Source of the DNA: Halopiger aswanensis
GTDB lineage: Archaea > Halobacteriota > Halobacteria > Halobacteriales > Natrialbaceae
NCBI RefSeq assembly: GCF_003610195.1
Contig: NZ_RAPO01000001.1
Coordinates: 992,001-1,056,000, forward strand
Length of the DNA: 64,000 nt
Reading direction: 5' to 3'
Shown here: positions 1,675 through 63,194 of the stretch, in pieces
Numbering within the stretch: position 1 is the first letter of the stretch
Layout of the letters: every line of letters starts with the position of its first letter
Position numbers and translations under genes: made by a program
The notes under the pieces: generated by a model
Told to the model about the DNA's origin: nothing
What the model saw: the letters and a program-made list of their open reading frames with translations, nothing else
Databases searched by the model: none

Positions 1675-4600
1675 CTAGACGACTGTTATCCCCGATTCGC
1701 CGGCGGTCGATTCAGCCGGCGGCGAGTCGCCGGATTGTTCGGTGCCCTCGGCTGAGCCGTTCGACTCGGCCGGTGGACCAGGGCTGGTCGGTTCGTCGGG
1801 CGATTCGGTACCGGCGTTCGCCGGCTCGTCAGCCGCTCCCGAATCGGGGGCCTCGTCGGTCGTTTCGGGCGGTCCCTCCGGAGATTGACCGTCACCTCCG
1901 TCTTCGGACCGCGCCTCCGGCGGTTCGTCCGCACCCGCACCGGCGTCGCCCGCGTCGCCGGCACCGGACTCGGTGACCGCTTCGATCGTCACCGAGCCAG
2001 TGTCGTTCTCGGTCGCGATCGTGTGCGTCGATTCACCCTCCGGAACCGTCGTCTCGAACGAGACCGTCGCCGATTCGCCGCCGGCGAGCGTCACCGCCGT
2101 CTCTCCGGCCGGTTGCCCGTCGACGCTGTAGGTCACCGTCTGCGTTCCCTCGAGATCGCCGACGTTCGTGATCGTCGTACTCACCGTGACCGGATCGCCC
2201 GGCGCCGGATCGGTTGCGTCCGCCGACACGTCGTCGATGGCAAACTCGGCAGGATCTCCACTTGGCTCGGTGGGCGCGATCTCGCCCGCAGCGGCGGTTT
2301 CGGCGGTCAGCACCTCCTCGTAGTCGTAGCGGCTCATATCGACCTCCCAGACGAGCCGCTCGTCGTCGCTCTCGGGGGTCCACTCGACGGTGAACTCGCC
2401 CGCGCCGGGCTCGAGTTCTTCGGGCGGTTCGCTGGCGGTCGTCCCTTCGACGAACGCGCTGTCGACGAACAGCGGCGCGTCGTTGGGGTTCTCGTAGCCG
2501 AAGGTGACCTCGATGGTCTCCCCGTCGTCCGTCGGCGTCGTCTCCTCGACGCCGATTTCCGGCTGCTCGGGCCGGACCTGCTCGAGACACTCGCTGGCGT
2601 CGGGGTTCGGGTAGTCGATCGAGCCGGCGAGTGCGTCCGGCGACGCGATGCCGGTGATCGCCGAGCCGAACTGTCCCTGCGGGACCTCGACGTACGCGCC
2701 GTCATCGGTCTCGGAGACGCCAAAGTCCTCGCCCGTCTCGAAGACGACGGTCCCCTCGACGGGTCCCTCGATGTTCTCGCCGACGCTGAGTGCGTACTCG
2801 CCCATCGAGTTGCCGAAGCCGCCGGACTCGTAGAAGCCGGTGGCCACGATGACCGTGTCGCCCTCCTCGAACGAGCCCGTCACTTCCGCGCGCGAACAGT
2901 TGACGAACTCGACGCCGAATTCGGGCGACTGGTCGACGGTGTACTCGATCGTCTCGTTCGCGAGCGGGGCGGCGGTCCCGTTCTCGTTCTCGTCGGCCGT
3001 CGCGTTGTCACCGTCGGCCGCGACGACCGCCACCTCGAGCGTCGCGTTCGATTCCAGCGGCGGCTCGAGGGCGAGCGACGCGTTCTCGACCGCCCGGCCG
3101 GCCGCGAACGTGTCGCTCGCGGCGCGTTGGTCGCCGGCCTCGTCGGTGACGGTGAGCGCGTAGTCGACGGAGGCGTTGGCTTCGTCGACGACGAGGGCCT
3201 CGCCGGTCCCGGCTTGGTCGCTCACGTTGAGCGTCGCTTCCGGTTCCGGCTCGGGTTCGGGCGCCTCGTCCGCGACCGCGTATTCGACGGAGTCGTTCGC
3301 CAGCGCCTCGTCCGTCGCGGCGTCGCGCACCGAGACGTCGACCGTCGTGTCGTTCTCGATCGACGGCTCGAGGTCTATCGACTCGTTCTCAACCGCCTCG
3401 CCGGCGCTGAAGGGGTCGCTGTCGACGCGTTCGCCGTCGTACGCGGCGCTCAAGACGTATTCGACGGAGGCATTGGCCTCGTCGACGACGAGCGTCTCGC
3501 CGTCGCCCTCCTGATCGCTTACGTTGAGCGTCGCCTCGGGTTCGGGTTCAGGTGGTTCAGTCGCCATCGTGTACTCGATCGATTCGTTCGCGAGTGCCGC
3601 GTCGTCCTCGAGCGCGCGCACGAAGACATCAACGGTTGCGTTCGCTTCGAGCGGTGGCTCGAGATCGAGTTCGAGGTCCTCGACCGATTGACCCGCGGCG
3701 AACGACTCGCTGTCGACCCGTTCGCCGTCGTACTCGGCCGTGACGGCGTAGTCGACGGAGGCATTGGCCTCGTCGACGACGAGCGTCTCGCCGTCGCCCT
3801 CCTGATCGCTTACGTTGAGCGTGGCCTCGCGGTCGGTATCGTCGGCGACCGTGACGAACGCACCGTCGAGCACCGGGCCGCCGCCCGCGGCGACGTATGG
3901 CTCGTCCTCGCTGCCGTCGGACTCTACGTAGTCGAACGATCCGTCGTCGTTCGTATCGTGATGGACGACCGCGACGAGCGCCTGACTCTCGTTTATCGGC
4001 TCCTCGAGGTCGATCTCGAGATCCTCGTACTCGCCGGCCTCGAGGTAGTCGGACGTGCCGATGACGGCGTCGGGATCGGTATCGACCGCGACGCCCTCGT
4101 AGATCGCGACGAAGCCGCCTTCCGAGAGGTCGACCTCGTCGACGACGACGCTCGCGCCCTCCGATTGCTGATCGGCGAACTCGATCGACGCGGTCCCCTC
4201 GAGTTCGTCGACCTGCTCGATTCGCTGGACGACGGTGACCTCGACGTACTGGACGATCTCCGTCGCGTCGGTGATCCCTTCGCTGACGGCGTACTGGGTC
4301 GCGTCCGCTGCCGTCTCCTGCGTGATCGTTTGGAGCTGCGTGATGCTGATCCGCTGGGACTGGACGACCCGTGCGGTCTCCTCGCAGGCGCTCCGGGCTG
4401 CGGTCTGGATCTGCTCGACGCTGGCCTCCTGAGATTGGACGAGTGCGCCGCTCGAGCCGCCCTGTGCGAGTCGCTGGACCTGCGCGACGTCGACGACCTG
4501 CTGCTGGGTCACCGCGCCCTCACCCGCGCCGCGCGCGGCGGCCTGGATCTGCTCGACCTCGACGATCTGGTACTGGACTGCCGACTGGACGGCGCCCTTC

Positions 4601-5925
4601 GAGGCGCCGGTGGCCGCGTGCTGGATCTGCGTAATCGAGACCTCCTGGCGCTGCAGCAGCGACCCCTGCGAGGCGCCGTCCGCCGCAGCCTGAATCTGCT
4701 CGACGGATGCTTCTTGGCTCTGTTCGATCGCCCCTTTCGACGCGCCGAAGGCAGCCTCCTGAATCTGCGTAATCGAGATTCGCTGGACCTGCTCGACGCT
4801 GACGGACTGGACCTGCTTCAGCGGCCCCTTGCCGGCACCGCGTGCGGCGGCCTGGGTCTGCTCGACCGAGACAGACTGGCGCTGCTCGAGCGCGCCCTTC
4901 GCGGCCCCGATCGCGGCCTTCTGAACCTGCTTGATGTCGACGCGCTGGCGCTGTTCGACGTCGACGCGTTGCTCCTGCTCGAGCACGCTCCGGGTGCTCC
5001 CCTCGAGCGAGCCGGCCGACGCCCCCGCGGCAGCGTGCTGGACGTGCTCGAGCGTGATCCGTTGGCGCTGCTCGACCGTGACTTTCTGGTACTGTTCGAG
5101 GACGCCGTAGGCCGCACCCTGGGCGGCCTCCTGGATCTTCGGTTTGCTGTCGACGCCCGTGTCGCCGGCCTCGCTGGCGGCGCCTGCAGCGGCGCCGTAG
5201 GTCGCGACCTGAATCTGCTCGACGGTCACGCGCTGTTGCTGGGCGAGCGCGCCGTGGGTCGCGCCCCAGGTCGCGCTCTGCATCTGGGTGGCGTTGACCG
5301 TCTGGTACTGGGCGAGCGCACCATCGGTCGCGCCGCCGACCGCGTACTGGATCTGGGTGGCGTTGACCGCCTGCTCCTGCATCAGCGAGCCGTGGACCGC
5401 GCCCGCCGTCGCGGACTGCACCTGCTCGGCGTCGGCCGCCTGGTGCTGGGCGGCCGCCTGTCGCGCGCCGTCGATCGCGGCCGCGCGCTGTTCCTGCGTC
5501 ACCTCGACGCCCTGGGACTGCGCGAGTTCGATTCCCGCGTCGACGCCGGCTTCGACGGGGTCTTCCTGCGCACCAGATTCGGTCTGCTGAGGCGTTGCTT
5601 CAACGCTCGAGGATGCGGCCTCGCCGCTCTCATCCTCGCCGCCGTCCTGCGGTTGTAGCTCTACCGGCGCCTCGAGCGGCAGAATATCCGCTTCGCCGTC
5701 GGTCCCCGCCGATTCCGTTCCCGACGACTCGGCCCCATCGTCCTCACCTGTCGGGTCGTCCTCCTGGAACTGCGCCTGCGTGCCGTCGCCCCCCTCGTCT
5801 GCCGATCCGGTTTCGGCTCCGTCGAACGGACCGAGACCACCGAGTGACGGCAGTGCGACCGCGCCAACGAGCATCGCCCCGACGACGAGCGCGACCGCGA
5901 CGAACCCGACGCGCGTGCGGTTCAC
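1675..5925 (-). CDS. Giant exported surface protein with Gln-rich 23-residue repeats, DUF7282-like and CARDB-like domains
   Basis: The gene encodes 1416 aa from a GTG start. Residues 1-30 form a signal peptide or signal anchor (MNRTRVGFVAVALVVGAMLVG). An acidic low-complexity segment follows to about residue 130. Residues 135-570 hold about 15 degenerate copies of a unit close to QxVxVEQIQxAAxGAxxGALxQ. Residues 578-690 look like the haloarchaeal DUF7282 domain (SVVVDEVDLSEGGFVAIYE). Three related modules follow, each beginning ATLNVSDQ. Next come a domain bounded by two cysteines (NCSRAEV to DASEC, near 960-1070), a CARDB-like domain (AFTNVG-type core NVGDLEGTQTVTYSVDG), and a Ser/Pro/Glu-rich tail. 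There is no PGF-CTERM or terminal membrane helix. The long open frame on the other strand is a compositional shadow. Likely an adhesive or cell-wall fibre; function inferred only. Confidence 0.9.
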   Translation of the reverse strand: MNRTRVGFVAVALVVGAMLVGAVALPSLGGLGPFDGAETGSADEGGDGTQAQFQEDDPTGEDDGAESSGTESAGTDGEADILPLEAPVELQPQDGGEDESGEAASSSVEATPQQTESGAQEDPVEAGVDAGIELAQSQGVEVTQEQRAAAIDGARQAAAQHQAADAEQVQSATAGAVHGSLMQEQAVNATQIQYAVGGATDGALAQYQTVNATQMQSATWGATHGALAQQQRVTVEQIQVATYGAAAGAASEAGDTGVDSKPKIQEAAQGAAYGVLEQYQKVTVEQRQRITLEHVQHAAAGASAGSLEGSTRSVLEQEQRVDVEQRQRVDIKQVQKAAIGAAKGALEQRQSVSVEQTQAAARGAGKGPLKQVQSVSVEQVQRISITQIQEAAFGASKGAIEQSQEASVEQIQAAADGASQGSLLQRQEVSITQIQHAATGASKGAVQSAVQYQIVEVEQIQAAARGAGEGAVTQQQVVDVAQVQRLAQGGSSGALVQSQEASVEQIQTAARSACEETARVVQSQRISITQLQTITQETAADATQYAVSEGITDATEIVQYVEVTVVQRIEQVDELEGTASIEFADQQSEGASVVVDEVDLSEGGFVAIYEGVAVDTDPDAVIGTSDYLEAGEYEDLEIDLEEPINESQALVAVVHHDTNDDGSFDYVESDGSEDEPYVAAGGGPVLDGAFVTVADDTDREATLNVSDQEGDGETLVVDEANASVDYAVTAEYDGERVDSESFAAGQSVEDLELDLEPPLEANATVDVFVRALEDDAALANESIEYTMATEPPEPEPEATLNVSDQEGDGETLVVDEANASVEYVLSAAYDGERVDSDPFSAGEAVENESIDLEPSIENDTTVDVSVRDAATDEALANDSVEYAVADEAPEPEPEPEATLNVSDQAGTGEALVVDEANASVDYALTVTDEAGDQRAASDTFAAGRAVENASLALEPPLESNATLEVAVVAADGDNATADENENGTAAPLANETIEYTVDQSPEFGVEFVNCSRAEVTGSFEEGDTVIVATGFYESGGFGNSMGEYALSVGENIEGPVEGTVVFETGEDFGVSETDDGAYVEVPQGQFGSAITGIASPDALAGSIDYPNPDASECLEQVRPEQPEIGVEETTPTDDGETIEVTFGYENPNDAPLFVDSAFVEGTTASEPPEELEPGAGEFTVEWTPESDDERLVWEVDMSRYDYEEVLTAETAAAGEIAPTEPSGDPAEFAIDDVSADATDPAPGDPVTVSTTITNVGDLEGTQTVTYSVDGQPAGETAVTLAGGESATVSFETTVPEGESTHTIATENDTGSVTIEAVTESGAGDAGDAGAGADEPPEARSEDGGDGQSPEGPPETTDEAPDSGAADEPANAGTESPDEPTSPGPPAESNGSAEGTEQSGDSPPAESTAGESGITVV
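3160..3835 (-). repeat. Three tandem copies of an ATLNVSDQ module, about 290 bp apart
   Basis: The stretch coding DQEGDGETLVVDEANAS occurs near 3458-3535 and again near 3750-3827, and these two DNA copies are almost identical over roughly 75 bp. A third, more diverged copy lies near 3163-3238. The near-identity of two copies within a diverged protein points to recent duplication or gene conversion. Confidence 0.8.
4216..5523 (-). repeat. Array of about 15 degenerate 69-bp units coding the Gln-rich repeat
   Basis: Each unit encodes a strand-like half (for example QSVSVEQ or QKVTVEQ) and a helix-like half (AARGAGKGPLK, AAFGASKGAI, AADGASQGSL). Some units carry an extra 8 residues of the pattern QRISITQIQ or QRVDIKQVQ, giving a period of 31 instead of 23. 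One unit has a long insert (near residues 250-265). The DNA copies have diverged, so the array is old rather than a fresh slippage product. Confidence 0.85.
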
Positions 5926-6427: not shown

Positions 6428-6459
6428 TTGGAAACCGAAGTTTTGATCTTGGTTTACGA
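6428..6459 (+). promoter_or_regulatory. Predicted BirA-type biotin operator upstream of bioY
   Basis: The two half-sites are TTGGAAACC (6428-6436) and GGTTTACGA (6451-6459), separated by 14 bp. Each matches the known BirA consensus TTGTAAACC / GGTTTACAA at 8 of 9 positions. The site ends 14 bp before the bioY ATG, where the TATA box of a leaderless transcript would lie. A bound BirA (biotin-protein ligase with a DNA-binding domain) would therefore block transcription when biotin is plentiful. BirA itself is not in the window. Confidence 0.75.
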
Positions 6460-6472
6460 GACACACGTCGGT

Positions 6473-7060
6473 ATGGCAACCGAACGACAGTCGGTCGATC
6501 GCGTCGACGGCGACGTCGTCCGGCAGTTCGCCCGGGCGGCGCTGATCGCGGCGCTGATCGGGGCGTCCGCACCCGTAACGATCCCGATCCCGCTCTCGCC
6601 GGCGCCGATCACGCTGCAGGTACTGTTCGTCTTCCTGGCCGGACTCGTCCTCGGGCCGGTCTGGGGGACCTTCTCGCTGGTGCTGTATCTCGCCGCCGGC
6701 GCGGTTGGGCTCCCCGTCTTCGCCGGCATGAACGGCGGCCCCGGCGTCCTCGTCGGGCAAACCGCGGGCTACCTCTGGTCGTACCCGATCGCCGCCGGAC
6801 TGATCGGGCTGGTCGTCCACCGCGGGACGAACCTGCGCGACCCCGCCGCACAGCCCCTTCCGGTCGTCGTCGCGGCACTCGTCGCCGGAACGCTGCTCAT
6901 CTACGGCATGGGCGTCGGCTACATGGCCTGGCTCCTCGAGATGAACCTCTGGGACGCGATCGCCGCTGGCGCACTGCCGTTCATCCCCGGCGAGATCCTG
7001 AAGATGGCCGCGGCGATCGCCATCGTCAAAAGCGGCCGGATCGTATCGGTGCGCTCGTGA
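6473..7060 (+). CDS. bioY: Biotin transporter substrate-binding (S) component BioY
   Basis: BioY is the membrane S component that captures biotin for the ECF transporter. The 195-aa protein shows five to six hydrophobic segments. It has BioY hallmarks: the first-helix APVTIPIPLSPAPITLQVLFV, the LAGLVLGPVWGTFSLVLYLAAGAVGLPVFAG stretch (cited in part), and the terminal FIPGEILKM. I chose the ATG at 6473 because the longer frame starting at 6428 would run through the operator. The gene stands upstream of bioM and bioN in one transcription unit. Confidence 0.93.
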   Translation: MATERQSVDRVDGDVVRQFARAALIAALIGASAPVTIPIPLSPAPITLQVLFVFLAGLVLGPVWGTFSLVLYLAAGAVGLPVFAGMNGGPGVLVGQTAGYLWSYPIAAGLIGLVVHRGTNLRDPAAQPLPVVVAALVAGTLLIYGMGVGYMAWLLEMNLWDAIAAGALPFIPGEILKMAAAIAIVKSGRIVSVRS

Positions 7061-7124
7061 CCGCACGCAACCGACTCGAGACCGCACGCACATCCGCGCC
7101 CACGCTCGTACGCGAACGCACGCA

Positions 7125-7853
7125 ATGATCGAATTCCGCGACGTCTCCTACGCCTTCGAGGACGTCCCCGTCCTCGAGGAACTCTCGCTGTCGGTCGAGA
7201 GCGGCGAGTTCGTCGTTCTGGCGGGCGCGAACGGCAGCGGAAAGACGACACTGTTGCGTCACTGCAACGGCCTCCTCGAGCCGGATTCCGGAACCGTGCT
7301 GGTCGACGGCACGCCCGTCGCCGACGACCTCGTTGCCGCGCGCTCGCGCGTCGGCATGGTCTTCCAGCACCCGCGCGACCAGTTCGTCGCCGCGACGGTC
7401 GGCGCCGACGTCGCCTTCGGCCCCGAGAACCTCGGCCTCGAGCGATCGGAGATCGACCGCCGCGTCGAAGCCGCGCTCGCGGCCGTGAATATGGCGGGCC
7501 GCGAGGACGAGCAGATCGACGCGCTCTCGGGCGGCGAACAGGCCCGCGTGGCCATTGCGGGCGCGCTCGCGATGGATCCCGACCACCTCGTCCTCGACGA
7601 ACCGTTTACCGGGCTCGACGATCCCGCCCGCCGATCCGTCCTCGAGCGCCTCGAGTCGCTGTCCGCCGAGGGCACCGGCGTCGTGCTCGCGACGCACGAC
7701 CTGCGGGACGTCCTCGCGCTCGCGGATCGGCTCGTCGCCATGCGGGACGGACGCGTCGTCGTCGACGACGCGCCCGAGCGAGCGATTGCGGAACTCGAGG
7801 GCCTCGAGGTTCGCGTTCCGGAAGCGTTCCGTCCCGAGGCCGACCGATGTTGA
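7125..7853 (+). CDS. bioM: Biotin ECF transporter ATPase BioM
   Basis: This 242-aa ABC ATPase energises biotin uptake. It has Walker A GANGSGKT (about residues 34-41), a Q-loop (VFQHPRDQF), signature LSGGEQARVAIAGAL, Walker B HLVLDEPFTGLDD, and the switch His in ATHDLRD. The asymmetric VFQHPRDQ sequence is typical of ECF ATPases of the CbiO/EcfA group. It follows bioY by 64 bp and overlaps bioN by 7 bp, so the three genes probably form one operon. Confidence 0.92.
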   Translation: MIEFRDVSYAFEDVPVLEELSLSVESGEFVVLAGANGSGKTTLLRHCNGLLEPDSGTVLVDGTPVADDLVAARSRVGMVFQHPRDQFVAATVGADVAFGPENLGLERSEIDRRVEAALAAVNMAGREDEQIDALSGGEQARVAIAGALAMDPDHLVLDEPFTGLDDPARRSVLERLESLSAEGTGVVLATHDLRDVLALADRLVAMRDGRVVVDDAPERAIAELEGLEVRVPEAFRPEADRC

Positions 7854-8551
7854 CCTACGAACCCGACGACACGCTGGCCCATCGGCTCGATCCGCGCTCG
7901 AAGCTCGCGGTCCAGCTCGGCTTCGCCGCGACCGCGCTGGCACACACCGACGCGCGAGCCCTCCTCGCGCTGTCCGCCGTCGCCGCGCTCGTCCTCGTCG
8001 CAGCGCGGGTACCGCTCCGGCGGACGCTGTACGCGTATCGGTTCGCGTTCGTCATCCTGACGCTCGCGCCGCTGCTGGCCGCGCTCGCGCTCGGGCCGCC
8101 GTGGATCGTCCTCGAGGACGGACTCGCGTCGGCTCGAGCGAGCTATCGCGTCCTGTTGATCCTGCTCGTTAGCGCTGCGTACGTCCGGTCGACGCCGGTA
8201 CGGGACTCGCGCGCCGCGATCCAGCGGACGATCCCGGGGAAACCCGGTCAGTTGCTGGGAATCGGGATCGCGCTCGTCTTTCGCTTTCTGCCCGTCCTGC
8301 AGGGCGATATTCGGACGATTCGCGATGCGATGGCTGCCCGACTCGGCACCGAACGCAGCGCCGTCGACCGCGCGAGTACGCTCACGTTGCTCGGGCTCTC
8401 GCGCGCCTTCGACCGCGCGGATCGACTCGCGCTCGCGATGCAAGCGCGGTGTTTTTCGTGGAATCCGACGCTGCCGCCGCTATCGTTCGGACGGGGCGAC
8501 GCAGTCGTGCTGGTGTTTGCGGTCGGATTAAGTCTAACGGCGTTCCTGTAG
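7847..8551 (+). CDS. bioN: Biotin ECF transporter transmembrane (T) component BioN
   Basis: This 234-aa protein of the CbiQ/EcfT family couples the ATPase to the S component. It has several hydrophobic helices (near residues 25-60, 68-85 and 98-110, plus the C-terminus). The cytoplasmic coupling region ends in ALAMQARCF, the place where EcfT proteins carry their Ala-Arg-Gly motifs; here the last residue is Cys rather than Gly. The ATG at 7847 overlaps the end of bioM, as expected for translational coupling. Confidence 0.9.
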   Translation: MLTYEPDDTLAHRLDPRSKLAVQLGFAATALAHTDARALLALSAVAALVLVAARVPLRRTLYAYRFAFVILTLAPLLAALALGPPWIVLEDGLASARASYRVLLILLVSAAYVRSTPVRDSRAAIQRTIPGKPGQLLGIGIALVFRFLPVLQGDIRTIRDAMAARLGTERSAVDRASTLTLLGLSRAFDRADRLALAMQARCFSWNPTLPPLSFGRGDAVVLVFAVGLSLTAFL

Positions 8552-8914: not shown

Positions 8915-9709
8915 ATGAGCCACGATTCGTCCGAACGGGACGCCGCGGAGCGGCTCCCGCACGCGGAAGGCGGCAGCTGGCCAGTCAAGGGCTTCGACGG
9001 AACCGAACGCCAGACGACGTACATCGGGATGGCAAGCCACGAAAGCGGTGATGCCGATATCGAGTCAACCGCGCTCGTCTACGACGAACGTGACGAGACG
9101 GTGTTTCAGGCCGTAATCGACGAGGACAACCAGCGGCTCGTCCCGAAGAACGGTACCGAACGGGAACTCGAGTCCGACGGCAGCCTCGCCGAGACTCTCG
9201 CGGCGTTCGGCGACCGCCTCGAGTGGGATTCGCTCTCCGAGTTCGCGCGGGAGCGACTGCAAGATGCGGATGAATCGCGCAAATCAGCACCGGAGCCGAT
9301 CACCTTTACCCGGAGCAACACGAGCGCCGCGGCCGACCACAACCTCGAGTTTTCGGGCTCGTACCGCTACCGGACGACCGGCGGTCAGGTGCGTACCGTC
9401 GAACGAACCCTCGAGGTAACCCTCGACGACTCGGACGATCCCGCTCGAGCCGCCGTCGACGTGACGGAACAGGTCACGCAGTCGACTGCACTGAGCAACC
9501 AACAAGATCGAGCCGACGCCGCCCGCCTTGGAACGAGCGAAACTGCGTTTACGATCGATCTCACCTCAGCTGCGACGGAGGGGCGGCTCGAGGCGGTGAT
9601 CGAAGAGTGGTGCCAAGAGTGGCACATCCCCCACGTTGCGCTGTCGGTCGAAGCCAGTAGTGAAGACACTGAACCGATAGAAGATAGATCAACCGAGGAG
9701 GATGCGTGA
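8915..9709 (+). CDS. Unrecognised acidic haloarchaeal protein, 264 aa
   Basis: I do not recognise this protein. It is soluble, strongly acidic and has no signal peptide or Cys-metal motif. The middle (about residues 125-190) contains FSGSYRYRTTGGQVRTVERTLEVTLDD, a run of alternating residues suggesting a beta-sheet domain. The end is a Glu/Asp-rich tail (SSEDTEPIEDRSTEED). The first half also looks like a separate small alpha/beta domain (TALVYDERDETVFQAVI). Base use is slightly less GC-rich than in the bio genes. No neighbour suggests a role. Confidence 0.8.
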   Translation: MSHDSSERDAAERLPHAEGGSWPVKGFDGTERQTTYIGMASHESGDADIESTALVYDERDETVFQAVIDEDNQRLVPKNGTERELESDGSLAETLAAFGDRLEWDSLSEFARERLQDADESRKSAPEPITFTRSNTSAAADHNLEFSGSYRYRTTGGQVRTVERTLEVTLDDSDDPARAAVDVTEQVTQSTALSNQQDRADAARLGTSETAFTIDLTSAATEGRLEAVIEEWCQEWHIPHVALSVEASSEDTEPIEDRSTEEDA

Positions 9710-10603: not shown

Positions 10604-10906
10604 CCGATGCATCCCCACTTCACGTTGAAAATCGACTCTGACGAACGCGTCCATAGCACAATAGTTCATGAACTGATGACGCGCACTATTGCAGATATTC
10701 ACCTACGATTTCACTACTCGGTAAAATTATCTGCCAGATGAGTCAACACACAAGACTTATTACTTCACTCGAATGATCTTTCTGATACCCCTACCCGGGA
10801 GGCTGGTAGGTTCGTAGCTGAGTTGTTGGGAGGATGTCGACGGTCGCCTTCCACTGATCGTGCGCTAACCAACCAAACCGCAGATAACACAACTATAACA
10901 CAACAC
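10604..10906. promoter_or_regulatory. Promoter and long 5' leader of the S-layer gene
   Basis: This 303-bp gap has no gene. A TATA-like ACTTATTAC near 10755-10763 would place the transcript start near 10785 and leave a leader of about 120 nt. The leader could fold with CTACC/GGTAG arms near 10791-10810. Long leaders are known for haloarchaeal S-layer mRNAs; the exact start here is inferred. Confidence 0.45.
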
Positions 10907-13423
10907 ATGAGCGGAAATTCATATCGCGAAAAGGGACGTGCAGTGTTCCTGGCAGCGATGATGGTCCTCTCTGTCGTCGCAATGTCTGCTGCCTTCGCAG
11001 GCGCAGGCGCTGCCGTTAAGACACAGGATATCGGCGACGCAGGACCGACATACAACGAGAGGAGCGACTTGGAAAACAAGGACGTCTGGATTGGCCAAGA
11101 GGTAACCCTCGAACTTGAAGAGGAGTACACCTCGCTGCAGATTCGCCAAGGGTCGACCTATGACGAGGATGACGATGTCGTCCTCGAAAACCGTGTCGAC
11201 ACCAGCGATAACACGGTGACCTTCGATAGTTCCGAGCTCGAGGCAGGCAATCCGTACAACCTCAACCTTACCGGCGGAACCACGGACTCGAAGTGGAATG
11301 GGGTTGTCTTCTGGCTTGAATCGGAAGACCTCGAAACCGAGTTCACCAGCTCCACAGTTACCCAGGAGGGTAACGCAACCGTCTCGCTCACGTCTGACCG
11401 AGCGAACCAGTGGGTGAACGTTACGGCTGACAGTCTTGATGCAGACGATCTCGAGGATGTCTTCAGTTCGAACGACAACAGCGACGTTTCGGTTGAAAAT
11501 ACCGACAGTGACGAGGACCGCGTGACCCTCAACGTCACGGACGTCACTACTTACGACGACAACGACATTGAGTTCAGTGCAGACTTCAGCGATATCGACG
11601 CTGGCGAATACGAGTTCGATTTCGAGACGACGGACTCGCTCGCTGCGGATAACGCGACGGTCGAAGTTATCCAAGACGACGCGGAAGTCGAATTCGAGGG
11701 AGACGCCACCGGCGAGCAGGGTGAAATTATCGACATCACTGTCAGCACGCAGTACGTCGACAGTGGTGCAGTCCAGATCGGTGAGCTGGAAAACTACAAC
11801 TTCCAGGCCGCAACTGAGTTCGAGATCAACGAAGACGATCTCAACGAGGTCACCCTGCAGTTCAACACCAACGCACCGAGAGCGACCGATGCTGAAGATG
11901 CGTGGTCGCTCCACCCCAAGCACGACGACCACGATATCGAACTGGATAATCAAGCCGTGAACGCCTCGGCGCTCGACGAGTTCGAGCCCCTCGGTGCGTA
12001 CGATTACGAGATGCAGGCCGGCACGGACCTGAATACGTCGACCACTTACGACGATAACTACTACATCAACGACAACGACGTGACTGACACGGCGTTCTTC
12101 GACGTGAGCGAACCGTCACCTGTTGGTGACGTCACTACGCAGGTTGCGCCCGCAGGGGACGACGTGTTCGACTACAAGGACTTCAACGAGTCCACGATCA
12201 CTGACTCCGACGTCGTCGCCGACGGCGACCACCTCCTGCTGTCGGTCGACAGCTTCGACCAGTCCGGACTGGTTGACTCCTGGAAAGCAGAGGAATCTGT
12301 CGGTGAGGACCTCGGAAACCAGAGCATTAACATCACTATCGAAGAACAGGATCCTGGCCCGAACGTTGATGCCGAGGTCTGGACGACCAACCCCGATCAG
12401 GCAGACGAAGAAGACTACAACCTGATCAACGTCAGTCCCGCACACACTGACACTGAGGAATACGACGGTGATCTCCCACTGGTCATCGAATACGATGACG
12501 CTGACGAGGAACTCGAGGCTGACGCATCCTACGACCTGACCTACTCGGTCAGTGAGGACAGTCCGTACGTGTCCGATGAGGACGAAGAGATCGAGATTGA
12601 AGACGAGTTCACCCTCGAAAAACCCGAACTCGAGTGGAACGACAACGCTGAAGAAGTTCCCAATTCGGAAGACGCTGAAGTGACCGGCGACACGAACGTC
12701 GCCCCCGGTAGCGAGATCAGCACGAAGGCTCGCTCCGGAGGTAACTTCACGGACTCCGAAGATGCGATCGTCGCCGAGGACGGCACGTTCACCGCCACGT
12801 ACGACTTTAGCGAGTACGACGCTGGCATCACGTTCGACCTCACGGCGACCCACGCCGATCGGAACAAGTTCGACGACGAGTACGACAGCAACCTCGAAGA
12901 CGAAATCGAGTCGACGCTCGTCGACGCTGCGGAACCGCTGATCCAGCTCGACACCAGCGCACCGTCGGAAGTCACCGTCGGTGACGACGCCACGCTCGAC
13001 GTGACCGTCGCCAACAACGGTGGCGCAGCTGACGAAGTCGAGATCGGCGTTGACATCGCTGACGAACCCGTCGACAGTCAGAACGTCACGCTCGAGCCTG
13101 ACGAGGAGTGGACCCAGAGCTACTCCTTCGACACCTCGGAAGCTGGTGATATCAGCTGGGGCGTCACTGCTGGTGACGACTCCGCCAGTGGCACGCTGAG
13201 TGTCGTCGAAGAAGAGCCGACTGACGACAGTGGCTCCGACGACAGCGGCTCTGACGACAGCGGCTCTGACGACAGCGGCTCTGACGACAGCGGCTCTGAC
13301 GACAGCGGCTCTGACGACAGTGGCTCCGATGACGACGATGACAGCACACCCGGCTTCGGCGTTGCTGTTGCCGCGATCGCCCTGCTCGCAGCCGCCATGC
13401 TGGCCCTGCGCCGTCAGGACTAA
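10907..13423 (+). CDS. csg: S-layer surface glycoprotein with PGF-CTERM anchor
   Basis: This 838-aa protein is the probable main S-layer subunit. The N-terminus MSGNSYREKGRAVFLAAMM... is the special haloarchaeal surface-glycoprotein signal peptide, with cleavage expected after AGAGAA. The body is extremely acidic, beta-rich and carries about a dozen N-glycosylation sequons (NLT, NAT, NVT, NIT and others). Near residue 715 a CARDB-like stretch (VTVANNGGAADEVEIGVD) precedes a spacer of seven DDSGS units. The end is STPGFGVAVAAIALLAAAML-ALRRQD, a PGF-CTERM signal recognised by the archaeosortase ArtA. The in-frame extension to 10823 lies in the leader, so I start at 10907. Its glycan is probably made by the cluster at 47.7-64 kb. 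Confidence 0.92.
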   Translation: MSGNSYREKGRAVFLAAMMVLSVVAMSAAFAGAGAAVKTQDIGDAGPTYNERSDLENKDVWIGQEVTLELEEEYTSLQIRQGSTYDEDDDVVLENRVDTSDNTVTFDSSELEAGNPYNLNLTGGTTDSKWNGVVFWLESEDLETEFTSSTVTQEGNATVSLTSDRANQWVNVTADSLDADDLEDVFSSNDNSDVSVENTDSDEDRVTLNVTDVTTYDDNDIEFSADFSDIDAGEYEFDFETTDSLAADNATVEVIQDDAEVEFEGDATGEQGEIIDITVSTQYVDSGAVQIGELENYNFQAATEFEINEDDLNEVTLQFNTNAPRATDAEDAWSLHPKHDDHDIELDNQAVNASALDEFEPLGAYDYEMQAGTDLNTSTTYDDNYYINDNDVTDTAFFDVSEPSPVGDVTTQVAPAGDDVFDYKDFNESTITDSDVVADGDHLLLSVDSFDQSGLVDSWKAEESVGEDLGNQSINITIEEQDPGPNVDAEVWTTNPDQADEEDYNLINVSPAHTDTEEYDGDLPLVIEYDDADEELEADASYDLTYSVSEDSPYVSDEDEEIEIEDEFTLEKPELEWNDNAEEVPNSEDAEVTGDTNVAPGSEISTKARSGGNFTDSEDAIVAEDGTFTATYDFSEYDAGITFDLTATHADRNKFDDEYDSNLEDEIESTLVDAAEPLIQLDTSAPSEVTVGDDATLDVTVANNGGAADEVEIGVDIADEPVDSQNVTLEPDEEWTQSYSFDTSEAGDISWGVTAGDDSASGTLSVVEEEPTDDSGSDDSGSDDSGSDDSGSDDSGSDDSGSDDSGSDDDDDSTPGFGVAVAAIALLAAAMLALRRQD
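13223..13327 (+). repeat. Seven tandem 15-bp units coding DDSGS spacer
   Basis: Seven copies of a 15-bp unit (GACGACAGCGGCTCT with few changes) run in frame and encode DDSGS. They sit between the folded S-layer domains and the membrane-anchoring C-terminus. In other S-layer proteins this position is a Thr/Ser-rich O-glycosylated stalk. Copy number can be expected to vary by slippage. Confidence 0.9.
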
Positions 13424-54674: not shown

Positions 54675-56480
54675 ATGTGTGGAATCGTCGGTTACGTCGG
54701 CACCGAATCAGCTGGCCCGGTCGTTCACGGCGGGCTCAAGAATCTCGATTACCGCGGATACGACTCTGCGGGTGTCGCGCTCGTCAATCAAGAGGTGACG
54801 ATCGCAAAGCAGTCCGGAAAGGTAGATGACCTATCCGTTCCCGACATCCCAGATGCGACCTGCGGTATCGGTCACACGCGGTGGTCGACCCACGGTCCGC
54901 CGACCGACGAAAACGCGCATCCCCACACCGGGATGACCGGAGACGTCGCCGTCGTCCACAACGGCATCATCGAGAACTACGACGCGTTGAAATCCGAGCT
55001 GCGCGCGGACGGCCGTGAGTTCTCGAGCGATACGGACACTGAGGTTATCCCGCATCTCCTCGAGCAGGAGTTAGCAGACGGCCACGATCTGCACTCGGCA
55101 CTCGAATCTGTCGTTGAACGATTAGAGGGGAGTTACGCGATCGCAGCGGTGCGAGCTGGTTCGGAGCAAATCGTTGCCACGCGTCACGAGAGTCCGTTAG
55201 TTGTTGGCCACGGCGACGACGCCTCGTTCCTCGCAAGCGACGTGACGGCATTCCTCGAGCACACCCGCGACGTGACCTACCTGGAGGACGGCGACGTCGT
55301 AACCCTCGAGGGCGGGGACGTGACGGTTTACCAAGACGGTGAGGTCGTCGACCGGGAAATCGAGACCGTCGACTGGGATGCCGACGCGGCAGAGAAAGGG
55401 GGGTACGACCACTACATGCTCAAAGAGATCCACGAGCAGCCCACCGCGTTGCGGCAGGCGCTGTCGGGCCGGATCGACCTCGACCGCGGCACGGCCGATC
55501 TCGACGTCGAGTTCCCGACCGGGTTCCTCGACTCCCTCGAGGAGATTCAGCTCGTCGCTTGCGGGACGTCGTACTACGCTGCCCAGTACGCGGCGGAGTT
55601 GCTCGAGGAGTTCGCTGACGTCCGAGCGTCCGCCGAACTGGCGAGCGAGTACACCTTTGATGGTGGACGAGATCCTTGGCGGACGCTCTGTGTCGCCGTC
55701 ACTCAGAGCGGCGAGACCGCCGACACGCTCAGTGCACTTCGGCGTGCGGCCGGCGCCGGCGTCCGGACGCTGGCGGTGACCAACACGCTCGGCAGTACGG
55801 TGACGCGGGAAGCCGACGATAGTCTCTTCATCCGTGCCGGTCCGGAGATCGGGGTCGCGGCGACGAAGACGTTCGCTTCACAGGTGACGACGTTGGCGTT
55901 GCTTTCGGTGTTCGTCGGTCGAGAACGGGGGACGCTGTCGGCGGCCGATGCCCGTGACGTACTGGAGAATCTTCGTGGGTTACCGGGTGCGGTTCAGCAA
56001 GTACTCGACGACGAAGGTGCCGTTTTGGAGGCTGCCGAAGAATACGTCGACGCCGACGCCTACTTCTTTGTCGGCCGCGAGTACGGCTATCCGGTCTCGC
56101 TCGAGGGTGCGTTGAAGTTGAAGGAGATTTCCTACGACCACGCTGAAGGATTCGCAGCCGGTGAATTAAAACACGGGCCACTAGCTCTCGTGACAAATAA
56201 AACGCCTGTACTCGCGATTCTAACAGATGGAACAAGTGCTGCGGAGACGCTAAACAACGTTGCAGAAGCCCAGACCCGGGAAGCGCCGGCAATCGGTATC
56301 ATCGATGGCTCCGTTGATGCGAAAGGGCTCGATGTTTCGCTCAAGATTCCGAATATCGGAGTACTCACGCCGCTTGTTGCAAATGTCTACCTACAGTTGT
56401 TTGCCTACCATATCGCGAACCTACAAGGTCAGTCGATCGATAAACCGCGGAACTTGGCGAAGAGCGTGACCGTCGAATGA
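54675..56480 (+). CDS. glmS: Glutamine-fructose-6-phosphate aminotransferase
   Basis: GlmS makes glucosamine-6-phosphate, the entry into amino-sugar synthesis. The 601-aa protein starts MCGIVGYVG with the nucleophile Cys2. It has TRWSTHG and VVHNGIIENYDALK in the glutaminase domain. Two SIS domains follow (LVACGTSYYAAQYAAELLEE, TQSGETADTLSALR and SYDHAEGFAAGELKHGPLALV). It ends with the usual PRNLAKSVTVE. With the GlmU-like gene it supplies UDP-GlcNAc to the glycan cluster. Confidence 0.96.
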   Translation: MCGIVGYVGTESAGPVVHGGLKNLDYRGYDSAGVALVNQEVTIAKQSGKVDDLSVPDIPDATCGIGHTRWSTHGPPTDENAHPHTGMTGDVAVVHNGIIENYDALKSELRADGREFSSDTDTEVIPHLLEQELADGHDLHSALESVVERLEGSYAIAAVRAGSEQIVATRHESPLVVGHGDDASFLASDVTAFLEHTRDVTYLEDGDVVTLEGGDVTVYQDGEVVDREIETVDWDADAAEKGGYDHYMLKEIHEQPTALRQALSGRIDLDRGTADLDVEFPTGFLDSLEEIQLVACGTSYYAAQYAAELLEEFADVRASAELASEYTFDGGRDPWRTLCVAVTQSGETADTLSALRRAAGAGVRTLAVTNTLGSTVTREADDSLFIRAGPEIGVAATKTFASQVTTLALLSVFVGRERGTLSAADARDVLENLRGLPGAVQQVLDDEGAVLEAAEEYVDADAYFFVGREYGYPVSLEGALKLKEISYDHAEGFAAGELKHGPLALVTNKTPVLAILTDGTSAAETLNNVAEAQTREAPAIGIIDGSVDAKGLDVSLKIPNIGVLTPLVANVYLQLFAYHIANLQGQSIDKPRNLAKSVTVE

Positions 56481-56604
56481 GAGACCGAAAAGCGTACATC
56501 CGGGGAGTGAAACGAGTGCATCGACAGCAGATGGTATCTTTCACCGAATTTGACTCTCGAAACAGTATGCGTATTGGTTCTGTACAAGCAGCGGTGGTGG
56601 TTAA

Positions 56605-58401
56605 ATGACAGACGGAGAGGACGATATTAGCTCACGCGAAAAACTCGATGCGTTACTCCGCGTTGCGAAGTATCGACCAAAATTTACTGCAGGGCTTATC
56701 GTCTTGGGTGGATTCGTTGCCTTCCTCGAGGGGATCGGACTAAGTTTCATCTATCCGATCATCGAAGTTGCGCAAACCGACGGTGAAGTCGCTTCGTCCG
56801 ATATGATTATGGAGGTCTTCTTAGGAATATACGATGCTCTTAATATACCCTTCAAACTTGGCTATCTAATTATTGGAATTGCAGCAGTGATGACGGTTCG
56901 GTTCACGTCGTCATTTATCGTCGGTTGGCTCAAAGCTATGCTCCAGAAGCGCTACGAGCAAGACCTTCGGAAGCGAGCATTCAATGCTGCACTCGCTGCC
57001 GAAGTAGGCTACTTCGACGAGGAAGGATCAGACGATATCCTGAACGCAATCATCACTGAGACGCGCTACTCTGGTCGTGTAATCAAAGGTGCCGTGCAAT
57101 CCTTAGAAACCTTATTCCTCGCAGGAATGTACTTGACGGTAATGTTTTACATTACCCCGAAAATGACTGTTTTTGCGCTACTTCTCCTTGGGGGCGTTAC
57201 TGTAGTTATCAGACATGTTATCGAACCAGCGGCTACCGTTGGGACGGAAGTCGCAGAGGCGAACGAACAGGTTCAACAGTCCGTTCAGGCAGGGACACAG
57301 GGTATCCGTGACGTGAAACTCTTCGGACTTGCCGACGAAGTATATGATGACTTTTTCGAGTCAATTCGTCGCTACACACGCTCTGAAATAAATCTTTCCC
57401 GAAACGAAGCCGCAATGCAAAACTTCTACGACCTTGCAGCGGCAATATCACTATTCGTCTTGATCTATGCAGGGTTTACATATACTGGCCTCTCACTCGG
57501 GGCACTCAGTATTTTCCTCTTTGCGATGTTCCGGCTTTCGCCGCTGATGAGTCGCCTGAACAGCCAGGTGTATAGGGTCGAAGGCAACCTCTCGCACCTC
57601 GTTCGCACGCAGGTATTTCTCGATGAACTCGACAGTCGACGGGAAAATAGTGGTACTCAATCTATTTCTACGGTCAACCGTATCGAATTCGATGACGTTC
57701 ACTTCTCCTACAATAACGATGAGAAAGTTCTAGACGGCATCTCGTTTAATGTCGAAGAGGACGAATTTATCGCTTTCGTTGGCCACTCCGGTGCCGGAAA
57801 GTCAACGATCGTCTCACTGCTTGCTCGGCTGTACGATCCCGATCAGGGTAACATTCGTGCAGACGGTACCCCTATTGAGGAGTACGACCTCAAGGAGTGG
57901 CGCGAACGGATCGCCGTAGTTCGCCAGCAGCCGTTTATCTTCAATGGTACCCTTGAGAATAACATCACAGTCGGAAATCGAGACGCAACTCGCGATGACG
58001 TCGAGCGCGTTAGCGAGATCGCGAAAGTCGACGAATTCGTCGACGAACTTCCAAATGGTTACGACTCTCAGCTTGGTGATGACGGAGTTCGATTGTCCGG
58101 GGGACAGCGCCAGCGAGTGGCGTTGGCGCGAGCATTATTGAAGGACGCAGACTTTCTGGTACTGGACGAGGCGACTAGCGACCTCGACTCGAATTTAGAG
58201 CGGGAGGTGCAGGACGCTATCGAATTAATGGACCGTAACTATGGCATCATCGCGATCGCACATCGGCTCTCGACGGTGAAGAACGCTGACCGGATATACA
58301 CGGTTGAGGCGGGGCAAATCATCGAACAAGGAAGCCACCGGGAATTGCTTGACGACGAGGGTGAATACGCGGAACTGTATGCGATTCAGTCGCGAGGTTA
58401 A
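56605..58401 (+). CDS. ABC exporter (MsbA/PglK type), probable lipid-linked glycan flippase
   Basis: This 598-aa half-transporter fuses about six membrane helices (residues 28-300) to an ATPase. It has Walker A GHSGAGKST near residue 400, Q-loop VRQQPFIFNGTLENNI, signature LSGGQRQRVALARALL, Walker B FLVLDEATSDLDS and H-loop AHRLSTV. Its place in the glycan cluster suggests it flips lipid-linked oligosaccharide, like PglK; this is inferred from context. Codon use is AT-richer than in glmS upstream, marking the start of a compositional change. Confidence 0.88.
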   Translation: MTDGEDDISSREKLDALLRVAKYRPKFTAGLIVLGGFVAFLEGIGLSFIYPIIEVAQTDGEVASSDMIMEVFLGIYDALNIPFKLGYLIIGIAAVMTVRFTSSFIVGWLKAMLQKRYEQDLRKRAFNAALAAEVGYFDEEGSDDILNAIITETRYSGRVIKGAVQSLETLFLAGMYLTVMFYITPKMTVFALLLLGGVTVVIRHVIEPAATVGTEVAEANEQVQQSVQAGTQGIRDVKLFGLADEVYDDFFESIRRYTRSEINLSRNEAAMQNFYDLAAAISLFVLIYAGFTYTGLSLGALSIFLFAMFRLSPLMSRLNSQVYRVEGNLSHLVRTQVFLDELDSRRENSGTQSISTVNRIEFDDVHFSYNNDEKVLDGISFNVEEDEFIAFVGHSGAGKSTIVSLLARLYDPDQGNIRADGTPIEEYDLKEWRERIAVVRQQPFIFNGTLENNITVGNRDATRDDVERVSEIAKVDEFVDELPNGYDSQLGDDGVRLSGGQRQRVALARALLKDADFLVLDEATSDLDSNLEREVQDAIELMDRNYGIIAIAHRLSTVKNADRIYTVEAGQIIEQGSHRELLDDEGEYAELYAIQSRG

Positions 58402-58593
58402 GTGGTTTGAACCTTGCAGCCATGTTTAGTCTCTGCTACCGCAGACCGCTGTGTTAGGTACTGTCGCAATAATCCGTATTAGGCGAATACGTTCGCATGG
58501 TTAGAAACAGCAATGAGTCACAGCTCACTACCTTTCGTAAATTTCTCTCGATTATTTCGATAGCTTGAATACGGTTATTATAGAAGTACCGGT

Positions 58594-59427
58594 ATGCCAT
58601 CAATATCGGAGAGAATCCAGCAGGCTTATGCAAGTGGTGGATTAACACATCTCTCCAAGCTCGCTTTCTCTCATCTTACCCGAACGGCGACCTACCACGG
58701 AAGACTCGCGTATTACAATCTCAAGGCGCCCCACAAACTAGCTTACACGGAACACGATATACTTACACTATCCGAGTGGGAAACTCTCCAGTACCTCGAA
58801 GCAAATGACGTTGGAATCGCTCGATTTGGAGACGGTGAACTCACGTACTTATTGGGTAAGAATACGAGCCACGACCCACAGTATCCACCCCTGAGAAAAA
58901 AAGTTCGACAGGTCTTATCGACGTACAGCAACGATACTTCGACCAACCAATATCTGGTGACATTACCCATCGACGTTACTCTTGGAGATTACTACTCCAA
59001 ACATAATACTGATCCATCAGCTTGGAGTTACGACAAGCGGTACGCAATGATCCCATTCCTCAAGAAGGGAGTTCCATATGGATCCCAGTTTTGCTTTCGA
59101 AAGGGAGAGGTGGCCCACAATGTAGGTGAATACAAAGAGAAACTGATTCAGCTCTTCTCGGAAAAAGATTTGCTATATGTGACGGACAAGAATCGGTTTA
59201 GCGAAGATATCGAGATATCCGAAGTCATCGAAATACCACCGGAATCCGAAATTGATGCTTTTTATATATATGATAATATCAAGGAACGAGCGATAAAAGC
59301 ATATGAGCGACATCACAATCCTCTAATTCTGATCTCAGCGGGAGTTACGGCAACTGCCCTGTCAGCAGAGTTAAACGCAGAGGGGTATCGGACGTACGAT
59401 ATTGGGAAACTGTATAAGATGCTCTGA
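58594..59427 (+). CDS. GT-D type glycosyltransferase (DUF1792 family)
   Basis: This 277-aa protein has the motif VGIARFGDGELTYLLGKN, where D-x-E (DGE) is the metal/nucleotide site of the GT-D fold first found in streptococcal Dgt1. Other family traits are RKKVRQVLST and the terminal ISAGVTATALSAELNAEGYRTYDIGKLY. In bacteria the family adds hexose to surface glycans. A TATA-like TTATTATAG lies shortly upstream. Codon use is AT-rich. Confidence 0.85.
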   Translation: MPSISERIQQAYASGGLTHLSKLAFSHLTRTATYHGRLAYYNLKAPHKLAYTEHDILTLSEWETLQYLEANDVGIARFGDGELTYLLGKNTSHDPQYPPLRKKVRQVLSTYSNDTSTNQYLVTLPIDVTLGDYYSKHNTDPSAWSYDKRYAMIPFLKKGVPYGSQFCFRKGEVAHNVGEYKEKLIQLFSEKDLLYVTDKNRFSEDIEISEVIEIPPESEIDAFYIYDNIKERAIKAYERHHNPLILISAGVTATALSAELNAEGYRTYDIGKLYKML

Positions 59428-59448
59428 AAGATTCGAGAGTGTGAGCAG

Positions 59449-59898
59449 TCACTCAATAGGTTCAGCAGGATTGCCGACGACGGTTGTCTTAGGCGGGACA
59501 TCTTCTAGAACAACGGCACCAGCACCGACCAGTGCACCTGCTCCGATTTCAACTCCGGGTCCTACCGTCACACCAGCGCCGATCGCTGCACCTTCGCGGA
59601 CGATAGTCTCAAGTTGTTCCCACTCGCCGTCAACCGACGGATGCATATCGTTGGTGAATGTGACGTTTGGACCGACGAAGACCTCCTCTTCTAGGGTGAT
59701 ACCTGTCGGAATAAACGTGAATGGGCGGATAGTGCAGTTCTGACCGATAGTAACATCTTCCTCAATATAGACGAACGAGTCGATTTTGGTACCGCTGCTG
59801 ATTTCACAGCCGAAGAGGTTCACCTGATCGTAAATGTCTACGTCCGTAGGTAATGACACGTCGGTGATGATAGCATGCTGCGGAGAGTGGTCGGTCAT
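59449..59898 (-). CDS. Hexapeptide N-acetyltransferase, WbpD/WlbB-like
   Basis: This 149-aa protein forms a left-handed beta-helix (IEEDVTIGQNCTIRPFTFIPTGITLEEEVFVGPNVTFTND, cited in part). The His in DMHPS and the terminal IGAGALVGAGAVV...KTTVVGNPA are typical of WbpD. WbpD acetylates UDP-2-acetamido-3-amino-2,3-dideoxy-glucuronate. The gene starts within the stop of the oxidoreductase gene (ATGA overlap), so trio members are coupled. Confidence 0.85.
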   Translation of the reverse strand: MTDHSPQHAIITDVSLPTDVDIYDQVNLFGCEISSGTKIDSFVYIEEDVTIGQNCTIRPFTFIPTGITLEEEVFVGPNVTFTNDMHPSVDGEWEQLETIVREGAAIGAGVTVGPGVEIGAGALVGAGAVVLEDVPPKTTVVGNPAEPIE

Positions 59899-60806
59899 TT
59901 TTGTCTCACCTCTTGCAGTCGCTCAATCGCCTCTACCGTCCGAACACCTACGACGGCGGAGTTGATAGTATTATGTCCTGTTTCGATCGCATCGATAAAA
60001 TTCGAGGCTTCAGCTCGTATCGTATTGTTCTTCTCAACAGGATACTTGGAGACGCCACTCTCGTCGTAGATTTCGATGTCTTGGCTGACAGCGTCGATTT
60101 TTGCGCTGGCTTCCGTCCCCGCGAGTTCAATCGTCCTCCGACGAATATAATCATCCCAGCTAACCTGCATTGTCACTTCAGCACCTGCAACGGAGAATTG
60201 TGCCGTTGCTGATACTGCTCCATCGACACCTGGAATTGTCCGCGTCTGACACTGTTCCTTAGAGGGCCAGTCGTCTGTAACAAAGTTTAGGATATCTATT
60301 GGATGCGGAGCAAGATCCCATAACACGTCCGTCCCTGAGGGAGGTTCAATGTGGTGGGTCCATCGGAGAGTGACATCATTCAATGTCCCAAATCGCCCGT
60401 CCCTATATAGATCACGAACCGTCTGGATTACGTTTGCAAATCGATAGATGTGCCCCGTCTGAATGATCTGATTTTCTTCGTTTGCAATTTCCATCAAATC
60501 AAAGGCAGCATTACGATCTGTTGTGATTGGCTTTTCAATCATAATGTCCACACCGGACCTAACAGCTTCCATGCCGATCGGTACGTGTGTCTCATTCGGA
60601 GTGCAAACGTGAATTCCATCGACCTTCCTCAACGTTGAGTCGAGATCTGAGAGGCAGTAGTCCGCACCTTGGACGGCATCGAGCCGCGAGTCATCGAGAT
60701 CGCAGGCGGCGACTTCCTCAATTCGACCCTCGTTACGGAGGTGGGTGTACTCTTCTACGACCTTTGATCCCCAATGACCCAATCCAATGACACCTATACT
60801 TGTCAT
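59895..60806 (-). CDS. Gfo/Idh/MocA oxidoreductase, WbpB/WlbA-like
   Basis: This 303-aa protein has the Rossmann start SIGVIGLGHWGSKVVEEY, the catalytic EKPITTDRNAA and the domain that binds a UDP-sugar (HHIEPPSGTDVLWDLAPHPIDIL). WbpB/WlbA oxidises C3 of UDP-GlcNAc-uronate, the step before transamination. It overlaps both neighbours (WbpE-like upstream, WbpD-like downstream) by 4 bp, strong support for a joint pathway. Confidence 0.87.
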   Translation of the reverse strand: MTSIGVIGLGHWGSKVVEEYTHLRNEGRIEEVAACDLDDSRLDAVQGADYCLSDLDSTLRKVDGIHVCTPNETHVPIGMEAVRSGVDIMIEKPITTDRNAAFDLMEIANEENQIIQTGHIYRFANVIQTVRDLYRDGRFGTLNDVTLRWTHHIEPPSGTDVLWDLAPHPIDILNFVTDDWPSKEQCQTRTIPGVDGAVSATAQFSVAGAEVTMQVSWDDYIRRRTIELAGTEASAKIDAVSQDIEIYDESGVSKYPVEKNNTIRAEASNFIDAIETGHNTINSAVVGVRTVEAIERLQEVRQK

Positions 60807-61891: not shown

Positions 61892-61912
61892 TATGATCAC
61901 CTTACCCCACGC

Positions 61913-61926
61913 CAATATAAATATTA
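61913..61926 (-). promoter_or_regulatory. TATA box of the WbpE-B-D-like operon
   Basis: The minus strand reads TAATATTTATATTGGC here, centred about 28 bp before the ATG at 61891. This spacing fits a leaderless transcript for the three overlapping genes. Confidence 0.6.
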
Positions 61927-62007
61927 TGCAATTCTATGAATGACAGTCCTGCATAGTATATAACCATTCGATCCCATATATTTTATTTGTGAACTGTTCT
62001 GAAATCG

Positions 62008-63039: not shown

Positions 63040-63194
63040 TCTTGCTGAATTCTCTCCTCGCTAGCTCGTAAAGTTCTGTCGAAAGGGCCAGATAGCTACG
63101 ACGGTAGATTTAAAGACAGAATAATCACAATTACAGATTTAAGCTAGCAATAGAGTATAAATAGTGCCAGAAAATAGGCTCAATAGTGCGTGAA

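Follow-up and report, generated by a model that had tools for sequence, protein, structure and literature searches.

The gene examined here occupies positions 1675..5925 on the minus strand of the window, the whole 64,000-nucleotide stretch of Halopiger aswanensis DNA that was analysed, and encodes a repeat protein of 1416 amino acids, predicted to be exported, with a GTG start and similar start regions in orthologues. Its hydrophobic N-terminal segment (residues 1-30; 5836..5925), a signal peptide or signal anchor to judge from its sequence and the hydropathy of homologues, is followed by an acidic, poorly conserved linker (approximately residues 31-120; 5566..5835) and by an N-terminal cap (residues 121-139; 5509..5565) which has AQSQG at its end and is common to relatives in the alignment. 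The repeat array (residues 140-525; 4351..5508) forms the front third of the protein. Self-similarity and unit listing resolve it into 23-residue units (some of 24-31) with three 8-residue inserts, VTVEQRQR (residues 282-289; 5059..5082), VDVEQRQR (residues 321-328; 4942..4965) and VSVEQVQR (residues 375-382; 4780..4803). A partial 16th unit, starting at residue 526, and a predicted helical C-terminal cap take up residues 526-570 (4216..4350), the best-scoring stretch of a low-confidence AlphaFold2 model (blocks of pLDDT 52-81). Behind the array sits a DUF7282 domain (residues 579-692; 3850..4191; Pfam PF23951, E 6.5e-38), and then three similar, Ig-like-looking modules with the motif ATLNVSDQ, recognised by eye and without a Pfam name (approximately residues 697-1000; 2926..3837), a possible Ig- or CARDB-like module with sub-threshold matches to B_ant_repeat and CBM60 (approximately residues 1234-1310; 1996..2226) and an acidic low-complexity C-terminal tail (1678..1995). 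No C-terminal membrane anchor is seen in the sequence of the window protein.

Divergent from the repeat gene lie genes for BioY, an ECF ATPase and an ECF transmembrane protein (6428-8551, plus strand), likely a biotin uptake operon. Further along the same strand, the product of 8915-9709 gives a sub-threshold match to the N-terminal domain of type I restriction enzyme R proteins (22.0 bits; cutoff 25.1), and 10823-13423 encodes an S-layer-type surface glycoprotein with a halo signal peptide, a BGTF surface domain and a PGF-CTERM match, which scores far under the cutoff of the S-layer glycoprotein equivalog model. This gene is approximately 5 kb from the repeat gene and nothing connects the two. 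Positions 56001-64000 have a G+C content of 0.44-0.50, against approximately 0.65 over most of the window, and are possibly an integrated element.

The 23-residue repeat in the window protein is real. Residues 121-600, compared with themselves at a lag of 23, reach a BLOSUM62 similarity of 0.90 per residue; among 500 shuffles of the same residues no lag between 5 and 79 gave more than 0.02. This confirms the Gln-rich repeat of the initial annotation; the span it had noted, 4216-5523, takes in the array together with the C-terminal cap and was accurately described. Secondary peaks at lags 8, 31, 46, 49 and 54 arise because of the 8-residue inserts and the 26-residue units. Read from the unit listings, the array holds 16 units, counting a degenerate first and the partial last; most have 23 residues, the first has 24, two have 26, one has 25 and one has 31. 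At the DNA level the repeat is detectable only in short stretches (69-nucleotide period, 2-3 copies, 73-83% matches), and the copies are therefore old.

Searches with the array alone returned no Pfam family at E values up to 10, including the curlin, leucine-rich repeat and alpha-solenoid families, nothing in PHROGs at E values up to 1 and, with a profile built from 11 sequences, no PDB chain at E values up to 10. The whole protein likewise matched no PDB chain at E values up to 1 and no NCBIfam model above threshold (B_ant_repeat, E 0.74 over residues 1234-1258), and its sole above-threshold Pfam match was DUF7282 (129.8 bits against a gathering cutoff of 27), with CBM60 sub-threshold at E 0.44. 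The initial annotation, whose author knew of no named repeat with this pattern, is thereby borne out for all libraries searched. It had also placed DUF7282-like and CARDB-like modules behind the repeat; DUF7282 is present, but CARDB (PF07705) is absent from the window protein at E values up to 1 in the whole-protein Pfam search and up to 10 in that of the repeat region, and exceeds the Pfam gathering score only in one relative, L065 (E 2.2e-9). In a literature search whose coverage left out most subscription journals, no paper on the repeat, on DUF7282 or on a fibre or adhesin function was found. Judged by these profile comparisons, the repeat is an undescribed class, an unnamed module common across the haloarchaeal order.

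The same repeat is found in other haloarchaea, where the initial annotation had proposed to look for it: of the 391 genomes sampled from the class, 111 have a match. Eighty-four of the 101 genomes of its own family (Natrialbaceae by the named relatives; counted from the listing) carry it, and the other 27 matching genomes belong to other families of the same order. Named relatives come from Natrarchaeobius, Natronorubrum, Natrialba, Natronolimnohabitans, Natronosalvus, Natribaculum, Halopiger and Natronobiforma, and further from Halorientalis and strain LT46; Natronorubrum is placed in the Natrialbaceae, Halorientalis in the Haloarculaceae and Halobaculum in the Haloferacaceae. Profile searches of four other families matched 25 of 28, 9 of 170, 14 of 146 and 3 of 9 genomes. 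At the level of the phylum 13 of 294 genomes matched, all within the same order, and none of the 294 had the repeat outside it. Two plasmid records, from Halobaculum and Halomicrococcus, contain the repeat. A viral origin was considered and rejected: no relative was confirmed when viral contigs were scanned with the profile, and phage records and PHROGs gave no match.

In all eight named Natrialbaceae loci the repeat gene is adjoined by BioY, EcfA and EcfT, and in seven by DUF5799, the eighth locus being cut short; none of these four neighbours occurs in 34 other loci (L041-L074), which are only 5-13 kb each. Outside the Natrialbaceae, TSP3, CARDB, NosD/beta-helix or DUF7282 modules follow the array, with DUF7282 present in the relatives L056 and L045. 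The gene is thus vertically kept in the Natrialbaceae and the array a wandering module outside them, and, given its varied C-terminal partners, the array behaves as a stand-alone extracellular module would. Export is predicted from the hydrophobic N-terminal segment: hydropathy places a hydrophobic 19-mer ahead of the array in 128 of the 131 homologous proteins, and a twin-arginine-like motif is found in nine of these 128. The "giant exported protein" of the initial annotation does have an N-terminal hydrophobic segment, but at 1416 residues giant is an overstatement.

The anatomy of the unit was derived from 197 open reading frames with at least three units, which after removal of near-duplicates left 131 proteins with 1596 units, 1428 of them distinct. 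Their consensus is [VA][TSND][VI]xQ[IV]QxAAxGAAxGA[LV]xQxQx. In this set, whose distinct units were themselves found with a profile of the repeat unit, Gly16 is conserved at 98%, Gly12 at 97%, Gln7 at 96%, Gln5 at 89%, Ala9 at 88%, Ala13 at 83%, Gln22 at 75% and Gln20 at 70%; among 451 regular units, selected by a stricter motif in which Gln7 is invariant and position 5 almost so, the values for Gln20 and Gln22 rise to 95% and 97%. Variability from position 18 across the unit boundary to position 5 has a strong 180-degree periodicity (0.88), and from 7 to 19 there is a weaker 100-degree signal (0.44), with 165 degrees about equal (0.42). Simple propensities call a helix at positions 7-16. Couplings were calculated from 1058 neighbouring unit pairs, with an effective number of 427, and a run on 1057 pairs agrees. 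Within the unit, those of the first part are of the i,i+2 type (20-22, 19-21, 2-4, 3-5 and 5-7), and those of the second part are i,i+3 or i,i+4 (9-12, 12-16, 11-15, 10-14 and 15-19); 1-5 and 3-7 also couple at this spacing. From periodicity and co-variation together we infer an extended segment at approximately positions 18-5 followed by an Ala/Gly helix at approximately 7-19. This agrees, across the 131 homologous proteins, with the strand-like and helix-like halves described in the initial annotation, and it leaves the boundary between them unfixed.

In the one pair compared, the array is the part under the strongest purifying selection: against the nearest relative, it has 92% identity and a dN/dS of 0.15, the region after it 88% and 0.20, and the linker 65% and 0.36. 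The length of the array is also nearly constant in its own family, with a mean span of 345 residues and a standard deviation of 12 (coefficient of variation 0.036; 78 proteins), compared with a standard deviation of 121 around 1434 for the open frame (0.085; n=71). Outside the family the span varies widely (standard deviation 92; 53 proteins). When unit order in the window protein was compared by rank with that in 43 proteins of other families, with few pairs in each comparison, 36 correlations were positive, three zero and four negative; unit order is therefore only loosely conserved outside the family.

Couplings between units provide hints of how they might pack. The strongest between neighbours, 17-10, scores 7.6 by mean field and 6.7 by pseudo-likelihood, and the strongest between next-but-one units, 17-14, scores 6.0 and 5.0. 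With standard weighting both score above the controls taken at a separation of at least three units (mean field 3.7, 3.2, 3.0 and 4.3 at three, four, five and six units; pseudo-likelihood 2.4 at four units). With harsher weighting 17-10 has 6.0 and 5.5 and 17-14 has 4.0 and 5.1, controls reach up to 4.6, above the 4.0 of 17-14, and neighbour pairs such as 22-5 or 20-1 can rank equally high. The residue pairs are physically sensible: Gly is paired with Thr or Cys at 17-10 and with Leu or Ile at 14-9, and the 15-11 coupling of next-but-one units combines Lys with Glu and His with Trp or Tyr. Because units keep individual identities among orthologues, common descent can look like coupling between them, and the 9-16 and 14-9 couplings may each stem from few events. 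Gln-Gln couplings vanish once the units are limited to those with all four Gln. The 22-5 and 21-6 couplings and the second structure model described below had pointed to a beta-hairpin around position 2; this idea was dropped because, in the same all-four-Gln units, 22-5 sinks to background and 21-6 is missing from the top-ranked pairs. The overall pattern would allow neighbours that run antiparallel and next neighbours that run parallel, at two units per turn, and the presence of couplings between neighbouring and next-but-one units, weakening beyond, hints at compact stacking.

Two AlphaFold2 models were obtained. For the full array (11 alignment rows) mean pLDDT was 36.1, with helices mainly at the array ends, some beginning near unit position 3; for residues 383-562 (33 rows, including register-shifted ones) it was 36.4, and the model has one long helix and short strands at unit positions 18-21 and 6-8, in disagreement with the first. 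These results are evidence of neither disorder nor any fold. The rod of the initial annotation is not confirmed as a fold, both runs being of low confidence. A low-confidence prediction, an outcome that the same annotation had named as refuting its claim, did occur (mean pLDDT approximately 36), but it carries no information with so few alignment rows (11 and 33).

The explanation we favour as a whole, at somewhat under an even chance, is an exported surface stalk with a strand-plus-helix repeat domain of fixed length. The vertically inherited protein would be exported, and perhaps held in the membrane, by its N-terminal hydrophobic segment; a flexible acidic linker would lead to an array folded as one rigid repeat domain. 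In each unit Gln20, Gln22, Val1, Val3, Gln5 and Gln7 would line one side of the extended segment, and the Ala/Gly-rich helices would pack closely through their small residues. Such an array would stand just outside the membrane and carry DUF7282 and the Ig-like modules outward; on the assumption that every unit adds a single strand spacing (approximately 4.8 angstrom), its 16 units would measure approximately 8 nm. A stalk is the simplest reading because the protein is predicted to be exported, is modular and has a constant array length in the family; a fibre or adhesin role, as in the initial annotation, is a guess. Carried to a specific new fold, a compact rod in which extended segments and Ala/Gly helices alternate with antiparallel neighbours, parallel i/i+2 units and two units per turn, in which Gln ladders and the packing of helices through small residues hold the rod together and the 8-residue inserts lengthen strands or hairpins, the proposal becomes rather unlikely.

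The same antiparallel neighbour couplings (17-10, 14-9 and 9-16) and parallel next-neighbour couplings (17-14, 15-15 and 17-17) would suit an all-helical rod, an alpha-solenoid with one helix per unit at approximately positions 3-19, a short linker and two units per turn. Thr, Ser, Asn or Asp at position 2, present in approximately 84% of the 1428 distinct units, would then be the N-cap, and the couplings 4-8, 4-11, 8-11, 8-15, 11-15 and 15-19, as well as the helical, better-scoring ends of the first model, some of whose helices start from position 3, point the same way. However, conserved and variable positions alternate strictly between 18 and 5, and this, like the Val/Ile-rich stretches such as VNIVQIQVI and the repeated VxVxQxQx inserts, fits a strand better; we regard this arrangement, too, as a lesser possibility. 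A curli-like or other pure beta-solenoid, with two strands per 23-residue turn and internal Gln ladders and possibly polymerising into fibres, is improbable: repeat length, regularly spaced Gln, Gly and Ala and the strands of the low-confidence second model speak for it, but no curlin family matches, positions 8-19 couple at i,i+3 and i,i+4 and not i,i+2, and the variable positions 4, 8, 11, 15 and 19 are helix-spaced. It is equally hard to credit that the array is a mostly disordered spacer which only distances the distal domains from the membrane, as very low pLDDT in both models and a simple composition (Ala 19%, Gln 17%) might suggest. Plain disorder is disfavoured because of the strong position-specific conservation in the repeat, above all of Gln7, Gly12 and Gly16 in the profile-derived units, and the array is moreover the most conserved part of the protein, is near-constant in length in the 78 proteins and contains residue pairs, such as Gly17-Thr/Cys10, that compensate in volume from one unit to another.

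Among known systems, leucine-rich repeats, beta-alpha solenoids with 20-30 residues per unit, resemble the array in unit length and in the proposed order of strand and helix, but the array lacks LxxLxLxxN, has Gln and Ala/Gly at the conserved places and no Pfam match to that family, and its shifted-register, next-but-one couplings would be unlike a simple stack. The curli protein CsgA has repeats of approximately 22 residues with conserved Gln, Gly and Ala and is an exported surface protein; the array shares these features and differs by its helix-like second half. With alpha-solenoids (TPR, HEAT and Sel1-like) the array may share antiparallel neighbour and parallel next-neighbour helices, but it has one helix per 23-residue unit and small-residue packing. 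The likeness to haloarchaeal DUF7282 surface proteins, shared with L056 and L045, lies in a domain separate from the array, which also occurs without DUF7282 and with TSP3 or CARDB. Many large haloarchaeal surface proteins are nameless; the repeat would offer annotators a new family and a marker of exported proteins, and it would be a short, highly regular structure target for how small-residue rods stay folded in saturated salt.

Short relatives L063, L064 and L065 have an RR-containing signal, twin-arginine in appearance, and the C-terminal end of L063 consists of 8-residue VxVxQxQS-like repeats. In the relative L055 (3647-9001) four consecutive 8-residue VxVxQxQx-like units lie between two 23-residue units; the 8-residue insert is therefore itself repeatable.
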